From Deltaproteobacteria bacterium (GTDB lineage: Bacteria; Desulfobacterota; Syntrophia; Syntrophales; UBA8958): a stretch of 32,976 nt of DNA. The stretch is from NCBI GenBank assembly GCA_029561465.1, contig JAKQIZ010000011.1, forward strand, positions 1 through 32,976, written 5' to 3'. Below are positions 27,062 through 30,331 of this stretch, piece after piece. Made by a program: the position numbers and the translations under genes. The number at the start of each line of letters is the position of its first letter. Within the stretch, counting starts at the first letter, position 1. The notes beneath the pieces were generated by a model. The model was not told the DNA's origin. It did no database searches and saw only the letters and a list, made by a program, of their open reading frames with translations.

Positions 27062-27355
27062 TTATTTCTTTTTCTTCGCGCGACTCGCCCGCTTGGAGGC
27101 CTTCAAGGGGTTGATCTTCTGGGTGTTTTCCTTGATTACCAGCTTAACGTGGGTGGCCCGGGGGCAATTGCCCATAAGCCATCTGCTGGCCGGATCCATG
27201 TATACCTGGCAGAAGCGACCGGTCGCCAGCTCGACTATCTTGCCGCAGCCTTCGCATTTTTCCACAATCGTTTTACAAGCCCCATCCTTGAAGGCGCAGC
27301 CATTGCTCTTCATGAACACACAATCGGCGCCCGTTCTGATCGTCTGACAAATCAT
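27062..27355 (-). CDS. PxxKW-family cysteine-rich protein
   Basis: MICQTIRTGADCVFMKSNGCAFKDGACKTIVEKCEGCGKIVELATGRFCQVYMDPASRWLMGNCPRATHV...INPLKASKR. GAGGTG SD upstream of ATG 27355. Family recognised from memory. Confidence 0.8.
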   Translation of the reverse strand: MICQTIRTGADCVFMKSNGCAFKDGACKTIVEKCEGCGKIVELATGRFCQVYMDPASRWLMGNCPRATHVKLVIKENTQKINPLKASKRASRAKKKK

Positions 27356-27441
27356 CTTTTTCACCTCAAAAAAAAGTTGGTATTTCTAACAAATAACCAT
27401 GGTTCTGTCAAGGATAAAGGGGTCAAAACATGGGGAATGAA

Positions 27442-27470
27442 TTGACTTAAAAGGTCCGTCGTGCTAGAAG
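27442..27470 (+). promoter_or_regulatory. Sigma70-like promoter for the PTS operon
   Basis: TTGACT - 17 nt - TAGAAG, about 45 nt upstream of ATG 27515. Confidence 0.55.
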
Positions 27471-27543
27471 AACCGCTATCTACTGCCATGGCGGCTGGGG
27501 AGAAAAGGTTGAGGATGAAGACATCGGATCTGCCCGGTTTTTT

Positions 27544-28260
27544 TTGCGGTCCCTCTTCGTGATGTCGTCCCTGAATTTCAGGAGAATGCAGAATCTGGGT
27601 TTTGCCTATGCCATTTTACCCCTGACCCGCAACATGGATGAAAACAAGGAAAGGATCGTGGCCTTTCTTCAGCGCCAGCTCGAATACTTCAACACCCATC
27701 CCTATCTATCCGGCGCCGTCCTTGGCGCAACGATAAGACTGGCGGAAGAAGAAGACGCCGTTGCCCCCACCGATCAAACCGCGACAACGAAACTGAAAAA
27801 ATCCCTTATGGGTCCCTATGCCGCCATCGGCGACAATTTCTTCTGGGGGAGTCTCCGACCCCTGGCCGGAATCATCGCGGCGATTCTCGCTTATGAGGGG
27901 TTTATCTGGGCGCCGTTCGTTTTTCTTCTGATCTTCGATCCCCTGCATTTATGGATCCGTTGGCAAGGATTTCTTGAAGGCTACCGCCAAGGATGGCGGG
28001 GGATCGCTTATATCCAGTCCTGGAAACTGCCGCTGCTGGCTCATTACCTGCGCTGGGTTTCCCTGATCATCCTTGGGGTGATGACCGGGTTGCTTACCGC
28101 GGACATACACCTTTTTCCGGGACAGTTTTGGCTGCGGCAGGGACTGAATATTGCCGTGCTGGCAGCGGTACTGCTGTTTTATATTGCCGTACGCCGGGGA
28201 TTGTCGCCGCTACTGATCTTTTACGTGCTGACCGCCGTTTGTTTGGTGGTGATGATTTGA
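27544..28260 (+). CDS. PTS mannose/fructose/sorbose-type EIID component; N-terminus may be frameshifted at a T8 run
   Basis: LRSLFVMSSLNFRRMQNLGFAYAILPL, YFNTHPYLSGAVLGATIRLAEE, LMGPYAAIGDNFFWGSLRPLAGIIAA. Confidence 0.85.
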   Translation: MRSLFVMSSLNFRRMQNLGFAYAILPLTRNMDENKERIVAFLQRQLEYFNTHPYLSGAVLGATIRLAEEEDAVAPTDQTATTKLKKSLMGPYAAIGDNFFWGSLRPLAGIIAAILAYEGFIWAPFVFLLIFDPLHLWIRWQGFLEGYRQGWRGIAYIQSWKLPLLAHYLRWVSLIILGVMTGLLTADIHLFPGQFWLRQGLNIAVLAAVLLFYIAVRRGLSPLLIFYVLTAVCLVVMI

Positions 28261-28261
28261 T

Positions 28262-28531
28262 ATGCAGGAGATAAGGACCTTCGAGGTAAAGAACAAGCTG
28301 GGAATCCATGCCCGGGTGGCGGCAAAGCTGGTAGAGGAGGCCAGAAGATACAAGGCGAGAATATTCTTTGAATATGAAGGACAAGAGGTCAACGGCAAGA
28401 GCCTCCTCGGCATTCTGACTTTGGCGTGTGGATCGGGAGGCAGAATGACGGTCAAGGTAGAGGGCAGCGATGCCGCCAAGGCGCTGTCTGCTCTGGAGCG
28501 ACTGTTTGCCGATAAATTCGGAGAGGATTAG
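28262..28531 (+). CDS. ptsH: Phosphocarrier protein HPr
   Basis: NKLGIHARVAAKLVEEA (active-site His) and EVNGKSLLGILTLACGSG (Ser46 region). Confidence 0.92.
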   Translation: MQEIRTFEVKNKLGIHARVAAKLVEEARRYKARIFFEYEGQEVNGKSLLGILTLACGSGGRMTVKVEGSDAAKALSALERLFADKFGED

Positions 28532-28549
28532 CAAAAGGTAACAATAGTT

Positions 28550-30331
28550 ATGCCTGTAGAAAAGAACAAAAAAACTATGGTGCTCAAAGGAATCGGTGTA
28601 TCACCTGGGGTGGTGACGGGACGGGCTTACCTTTTCGATCGCCTCGATGCCCAGATTTCCTTTTACAAACTCAACAAGGCAGGCCTGATAACAAAGGAAA
28701 TCAGGCGTTTCCGGGAAGCATTGCGGGCCTCGGAGCGGCAGTTGAAGGAAATCAAGAGTAAACTGACAGAGGTAGCGGGCCTGGAACCGATCTATATTAT
28801 GGATGTCCATATTATGATCCTCAAAGACAGATCATTTGTCGCCAACGTGGTCCAGCGAATTCGTGAAATGTCTGTAAACGCGGAATGGGCCGTTCGTTTG
28901 ACCATTGATAAATACCGCGACATATTTGAGAAAATGGACGATGAATACCTGCGGGACCGCTTCAACGATATCCGTTATGTCGGGCAGATGATCCTCCGCA
29001 ATCTTGCCGGACGGCGCCAGGAAACGATCTCCCCCCTAGGTGAAGGGGTGATCGTTATCGCCACGGATTTGTCACCTGCAGATACCGCCCAGATGATGAT
29101 CGACAAGGTGCTGGCTTTTGCTACCGACATGGGAAGTAAGACCTCCCATACGGCCATTGTGGCCCGATCCATAGCCATCCCGGCGGTTGTGGGACTGGAG
29201 AGGGTAACCAGACAGGTCCGGACGAACGATCTCATCATCATCGACGGCACCGCCGGTCTGGTCATCGTCAATCCCGATCCGGAGCTCCTGCACCGCTACG
29301 AGGAGAAAAAGCACCATTACCAGACGGTTCGGGAAGAAGCGCTTAAATATGCAAAATTTCCGGCTGTTACCAGAGACCGTTGCCGGATCCAGATCGCCGG
29401 CAATATAGAGTTCATCGAAGAAATTCCCTCCGCCGTCGCCCACGGAGCCGAGGGAATCGGACTGTATCGTACCGAGTTCATATACATCAACCGGGAAGAG
29501 CTGCCGACGGAGGAGGACCACTTCCTCAATTATCGCCGGGTCATCGGTGTAGAGGGGCTGGAATGGGCAACCATCCGCACCTTCGATCTGGGTGGCGACA
29601 AGTTCTTTTCCGACCCGAAACTGGCCAAGGAAATGAATCCCCAGATGGGGCTCCGGGCCATTCGTTTCTGCCTAAAGGAAATCAATCTGTTCAAGGTGCA
29701 GCTCCGGGCGATCCTCCGGGCCAGCGCCTTCGGGAAGGCAAAGATCCTCTTCCCCATGATTTCGGGCATCGAAGAAATACGTGCCGCGAAGAAGATCCTC
29801 GGAGAGGTCCGTGATGATCTGAAACAACAAGGAATCTCGGTGGGCGAGGATATCGAGATCGGTGTCATGATCGAGGTGCCATCGGCGGTCATCATCGCCG
29901 AGGAACTGGCCAAGGAAGTCGATTTTTTCAGTATCGGCACCAACGATCTGATTCAGTACGTCCTGGCCATCGACCGGATCAACGACCGGGTTACCTATCT
30001 CTATGAACCCCTCCACCCCGCCGTCCTCAGGATGATCAGAAAAGTGGTGGAAATAGGCCACCGGGCCGGCATTCATGTGGCCATGTGTGGGGAAATGGCC
30101 GGAGACCCCACATATGCGATGATCCTGCTGGCCATGGAAATAGACGAACTGAGCATGAATCCCCTGGCCATTCCCAAGGTAAAGGAAATCATCAGGGAAA
30201 CGACCCTGAAAGAAGCGCGACAGCTCATGAGAAGGGTAATGAAAATGGCCTCGGCGGTGGAAATTCGGGAACATGTGGAAAAGACCATGCGGGAAAAATT
30301 TTCCGGTCTTTTGGCCGGTAACGGATCTTAG
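28550..30331 (+). CDS. ptsI: Phosphoenolpyruvate-protein phosphotransferase (PTS enzyme I)
   Basis: TDMGSKTSHTAIVARSIAIPAVVG active site, GIGLYRTEFIYI, FSIGTNDLIQYVLAIDR, VAMCGEMAGDP. Confidence 0.96.
   Translation: MPVEKNKKTMVLKGIGVSPGVVTGRAYLFDRLDAQISFYKLNKAGLITKEIRRFREALRASERQLKEIKSKLTEVAGLEPIYIMDVHIMILKDRSFVANVVQRIREMSVNAEWAVRLTIDKYRDIFEKMDDEYLRDRFNDIRYVGQMILRNLAGRRQETISPLGEGVIVIATDLSPADTAQMMIDKVLAFATDMGSKTSHTAIVARSIAIPAVVGLERVTRQVRTNDLIIIDGTAGLVIVNPDPELLHRYEEKKHHYQTVREEALKYAKFPAVTRDRCRIQIAGNIEFIEEIPSAVAHGAEGIGLYRTEFIYINREELPTEEDHFLNYRRVIGVEGLEWATIRTFDLGGDKFFSDPKLAKEMNPQMGLRAIRFCLKEINLFKVQLRAILRASAFGKAKILFPMISGIEEIRAAKKILGEVRDDLKQQGISVGEDIEIGVMIEVPSAVIIAEELAKEVDFFSIGTNDLIQYVLAIDRINDRVTYLYEPLHPAVLRMIRKVVEIGHRAGIHVAMCGEMAGDPTYAMILLAMEIDELSMNPLAIPKVKEIIRETTLKEARQLMRRVMKMASAVEIREHVEKTMREKFSGLLAGNGS

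Follow-up and report, generated by a model that had tools for sequence, protein, structure and literature searches.

ManZ of E. coli (EIID-Man, PDB 6k1h/7dyr) belongs to the same family as the EIID protein analysed here and is encoded by one open frame, beside ManX and ManY. Restoration of a reading frame by transcriptional slippage on a homopolymer has been described in other genes: in Citrobacter rodentium tssM1, approximately 20% frameshifting on an A11 run was demonstrated by mass spectrometry of RT-PCR products and by GFP fusions (PMC4256274), and in Shigella mxiE, which has a U run, a layout of two frames is the normal gene, as described in PMC1088944. In E. coli, insertion on poly(T7/8) rescues out-of-frame reporters to about 5-10% of the in-frame control (PMC6260861), and homopolymer insertions in E. 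coli and Buchnera are restricted to A or T runs (PMC5574713). According to Antonov et al. (2013, PMC3711429), most frame breaks that are found in a single genome and backed by homology are expected to be sequencing errors.

Here we analyse an EIID gene with a broken frame in a stretch of 32,976 nucleotides (the window). The gene is very probably an ordinary EIID gene in which a T9-type run has been contracted by one base, through a consensus error or through a recent or subpopulation indel, rather than a selected recoding device.

The EIID locus and its start codon

The source MAG (194 contigs, 92.5% complete, 5.6% contaminated, ~2.6 Mb) has Syntrophus-like MAGs as its nearest named relatives. 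In the window, the genes of EIID, HPr and enzyme I (EI) follow each other in this order on one strand (Table 1); the EIID frame matches the profile of its family, PF03613, with 163.5 bits (cut-off 25) and an E value of 7e-48. Head-to-head with the PTS genes lies a divergent neighbour on the minus strand (27065-27364), encoding a cysteine-rich protein of the PxxKW family (NF038144; DUF6811). The layout is that of the genus, with EIID beside HPr and EI (27062-30331 in the window) and apart from EIIA and EIIC; this split EIID-HPr-EI arrangement is possibly a regulatory PTS layout.

Table 1. Features around the broken EIID frame, with positions in the window
Feature	Position	Strand	Basis or remark
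Putative sigma-70-type promoter, TTGACT-17-TAGAAG	27442..27470	+	read in sequence; TTGACT 27442-27447, 17-base spacer, TAGAAG 27465-27470
Shine-Dalgarno-like AAAAGG	27503..27508	+	6 bases 5' of ATG 27515
Short frame from the family's normal start codon, MKTSDLPGFFCGPSS*	27515..27562	+	translation; conserved N-terminal codons; ATG 27515-27517, stop TGA 27560-27562
T8 run at the Phe-Phe-Leu codons	27538..27545	+	exact length 8; holds U_UUU_UUU 27538-27544
EIID frame (PTS mannose/fructose/sorbose family IID), TTG to stop	27544..28260	+	PF03613
HPr phosphocarrier gene, directly 3' of EIID	28262..28531	+	PF00381, E 7e-26
PTS enzyme I gene	28550..30331	+	PF05524/PF00391/PF02896; TIGR01417

ATG 27515 opens a frame of only 15 codons, and the EIID frame lies one base off it across the T8 run; the first usable starts within the EIID frame itself are TTG 27544 and ATG 27562. 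An earlier note on this DNA had described exactly this arrangement: an ATG that reads MKTSDLPGFFCGPSS-stop, a Shine-Dalgarno sequence and a promoter upstream of it, a one-base offset at the T run, and the TTG and the late ATG as the starts available without an extra base. All of these were found again, run length and offset included. Both upstream signals are also present in the nearest relative (G002), the AAAAGG unchanged and the putative promoter as TTGACT...TAGAAA; TTGACT-17-TAGAAG of the window did not pass a strict consensus promoter scan.

EIID is present in all seven other genomes of the genus that were searched, and in each of them it is one open frame from the position equivalent to ATG 27515, starting with MxxxDLxGFFLRSLF. 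The site was compared in an alignment of the window with four congeners and, for the other three, in a codon table: it has nine bases in all seven congeners and eight in the window (counted between CCGG and GCGG/ACGG/GCGC for the window and the four aligned relatives). The composition of these nine bases differs, with T9 in three congeners, C or G followed by T8 in three and T7CT in G002; thus the run varies in length and interruption, yet the frame is kept in 7/7. The peptide that is out of frame in the window, MKTSDLPGFF, is identical in eight of ten residues to MKASDLSGFF of one congener (G004), and the DLxxxFLRS segment preceding the NFxRMQ motif is split over two frames in the window and contained in a single one in the seven congeners. 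E. coli ManZ, of known structure (6k1h), aligns across the stretch, with SDIRGVFLRS matching ASDLAGFFLRS. Judged from these alignments, the one-base offset is not chance. The upstream start of all congeners, together with the alignment of ManZ through the segment, places the N-terminus of EIID at ATG 27515, and TTG 27544 and ATG 27562 are not natural starts.

Could translation nevertheless begin naturally behind the T run, either from TTG 27544 or through re-initiation at ATG 27562? A protein starting at the TTG still spans positions 12-259 of PF03613, and the stop of the short frame overlaps the late ATG (TGATG, 27560-27564). However, all congeners begin upstream, with profile matches from position 2-3 onwards, the upstream segment is contained in solved EIIDs, and neither TTG 27544 nor ATG 27562 has a Shine-Dalgarno sequence at proper distance; we consider a natural start behind the run most improbable. 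The expectation of the earlier note, an EIID that starts at ATG 27515 and includes GFFLRSLF, with a run lacking one T relative to the family, is thus borne out by the seven congeners and ManZ, and the comparison of homologues that it had proposed yields no orthologue among the seven starting at a TTG or ATG after the run.

The gene body and the partner PTS genes

The earlier note had also raised the possibility of a gene in decay. In this case, EIID would be a pseudogene, perhaps following the loss of the partner genes EIIA, EIIB and EIIC, and two observations would fit: the start codon is out of frame, and a search of the MAG for EIIA, EIIB and EIIC found none of them, whereas EIIA and EIIC are present in all seven congeners. 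However, the body of EIID has no internal stop, and its comparison with G002 gives a dS of 0.67, a dN of 0.143 and a dN/dS of 0.215. The dN/dS of HPr and EI for the same pair is 0.153 and 0.075, respectively, and that of EIID for another pair of congeners (G003-G007) is 0.145. Unique amino acid changes are not in excess: the window MAG has 8, 12 and 8 and G002 has 16, 15 and 13 with three different outgroups. Purifying selection acts on the EIID body, which shows no acceleration, no relaxed selection and no further lesions; since it is intact and constrained, the break is either recent or not real.

The absence of the partner genes was dropped as support for decay. In G002, an EIIABC cluster (at 3-5 kb of its contig) lies beside pyrD and pyrK, and no counterpart of this neighbourhood was found in the window MAG, pyrD included. 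Because pyrD and the surroundings are missing too, a gap in the MAG explains the absence of EIIABC better than gene loss does. With its intact body and this probable gap, a decaying EIID is highly doubtful.

Slippage, frameshifting and switching at the T run

If the deletion is real, the main product would be the 15-residue peptide, with small amounts of EIID arising through adventitious routes. RNA polymerase could slip on T8 and add a U; ribosomes could shift by -1 on U_UUU_UUU, giving MKTSDLPGFF|LRSLF...; or translation could re-initiate at ATG 27562, which overlaps the TGA of the short frame. The in-phase heptamer and the TGATG overlap, and with them the latter two possible routes, go beyond the earlier note. 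None of the three is conserved as a mechanism, because no relative needs one.

Functional transcriptional slippage would mean that one U is added to the T8 run in some transcripts, placing ATG 27515 in the EIID frame. The length of the run suffices (the lower limit in E. coli is approximately T7; PMC6260861), natural rescue on a homopolymer has a precedent in Citrobacter tssM (PMC4256274), and across the Syntrophales the T-rich codons are more pronounced here than anywhere else in the gene. Against this, the frame is open in 7/7 congeners, with the run interrupted in the nearest of them, the yield expected on T8 is low, and a genome-wide RNA study of Buchnera found no frame-restoring slippage (PMC5574713). 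A break conserved among orthologues, as expected of a slippage gene, was seen in none of the seven congeners. Functional slippage is therefore very unlikely.

Programmed -1 ribosomal frameshifting, which would leave the RNA unchanged, is extremely improbable. The heptamer U_UUU_UUU is exactly in phase with ATG 27515, and a -1 shift would lead on to TTG 27544, but the heptamer is not conserved in the relatives, it is much weaker than A_AAA_AAG in E. coli (PMC5009743), and no stimulatory structure was found downstream (the fold of 27546-27630 has a z-score of +0.53 against shuffles). A small terminator-like hairpin at 27523-27538 was considered as well and rejected: it folds no better than shuffled sequences, and the fold is not the same in the relatives.

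The codons at the run were compared in 30 Syntrophales EIID orthologues. The Phe-Phe-Leu of FFLRS is strongly biased to TTT TTT TTA/TTG, unlike most Leu codons of the gene. TTA or TTG encodes the Leu of FLRS in 18 of 23 copies, compared with 243 of the 993 Leu codons at other positions of these genes, and this column ranks first among the 35 Leu columns. The Phe preceding this Leu is TTT in 22 of 23 copies, against 262 of 457. The sequences are related, so that the probability from Fisher's test overstates this bias. AT-rich codons near gene starts would be the plain explanation. The biased codons keep a slippage-prone run at this position, and this is the one observation that speaks for a functional reading. 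On such a reading, selection in Syntrophus-like bacteria would maintain the Phe-Phe-Leu run because its proneness to slippage tunes or switches the output of the PTS, and our genome would have been caught out of frame; this is a long shot.

The same bias in the FLRS Leu codon (18/23 against 243/993) and the retention of a T7-T9 run at this position in the genus would also fit phase variation, with replication slippage changing the length of the T run and thereby turning EIID on and off in the population. Yet the gene is in frame in all seven other species (one genome per species), T8 would make a short contingency tract and the EIID of a mostly regulatory PTS is no surface antigen; all this makes phase variation highly improbable. 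The frame break is restricted to one assembly and occurs in none of the seven congeners, and since the relatives are always in frame, conserved programmed slippage, programmed frameshifting and a genus-wide switch are unsupported. There is no evidence for a programmed or switching device at EIID.

Origin of the contraction and comparison with known systems

Very probably, then, one base was lost from an ordinary gene. Its N-terminal Phe-Phe-Leu codons make up a long stretch of T, the probable site of the one-base contraction; with one base fewer than in any of the sister species, the run leaves ATG 27515 out of frame with an intact remainder. Among the causes proposed by the earlier note, the lost T stands, with an assembly error or a recent indel fitting best; decay is disfavoured by the dN/dS of 0.215 without excess amino acid changes, and slippage and phase variation are disfavoured by a break in one genome only and by relatives whose run is interrupted or of other length. 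As to how the base was lost, a consensus error of the metagenome assembly has about an even chance, and a slippage mutation of the sampled organism, either recent or present in a subpopulation, is a serious but less than even possibility.

Counted against an error or indel as the best explanation, long open frames extend across 44 of the 84 runs of at least eight bases in the contigs sampled. We surveyed indels with frameshift-aware protein-to-DNA alignments of sampled contigs (~873 kb of the MAG against 731 kb of G002), and each apparent break was checked for a codon-phase substitution bias on both sides. Across 42 genes whose substitutions relative to G002 follow a coding-type pattern (19,030 codons, ~57 kb), there was no other break flanked on both sides by coding-type substitutions. 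The survey is blind within a few codons of gene ends, and EIID itself fails the automatic phase test, because only about ten codons precede its break. The MAG is thus not generally rich in indels, and a real mutation becomes more likely. That the assembly might be indel-rich had been suggested by 16-20 apparent breaks in the window MAG (G000; tblastn and frameshift-aware alignment), but this idea was dropped, as these breaks failed the substitution-phase test; they resemble antisense open frames or gene edges. A list of nucleotide gaps was discarded as an indel survey, being too noisy. A single homopolymer error in a 2.6-Mb MAG is unremarkable.

The consequences are mostly a matter of annotation hygiene: gene calls beginning at TTG 27544 or ATG 27562 omit the true N-terminus of the protein, and no claim that the EIID start or the PTS has been lost should be based on this MAG. 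Should the deletion be real and regularly bypassed, the gene would be a small natural case of adventitious frame rescue in an anaerobic syntroph.

Compared with the known systems, EIID is a family member of E. coli ManZ, with SDIRGVFLRS...NFERMQALGF of ManZ aligning with the genus motif xSDLxGFFLRS...NFxRMQNLGF, but unlike manZ the gene of the window adjoins HPr and EI, and the EIIA and EIIC genes of the congeners are located elsewhere. With C. rodentium tssM1 it shares a homopolymer at which one additional nucleotide would restore the frame of a conserved gene; in contrast to the longer A run of tssM1, the run of EIID is T8 and lies close to the start codon. As in mxiE, insertion of a U would join two overlapping frames into one protein, but the relatives of EIID have a single open frame. 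The break also resembles the singletons of the prokaryotic GeneTack survey (PMC3711429), with a break in one genome only, intact homologues and a poly-T site; for the window, error and mutation are both candidate causes. The EIID frame break is of an ordinary kind.
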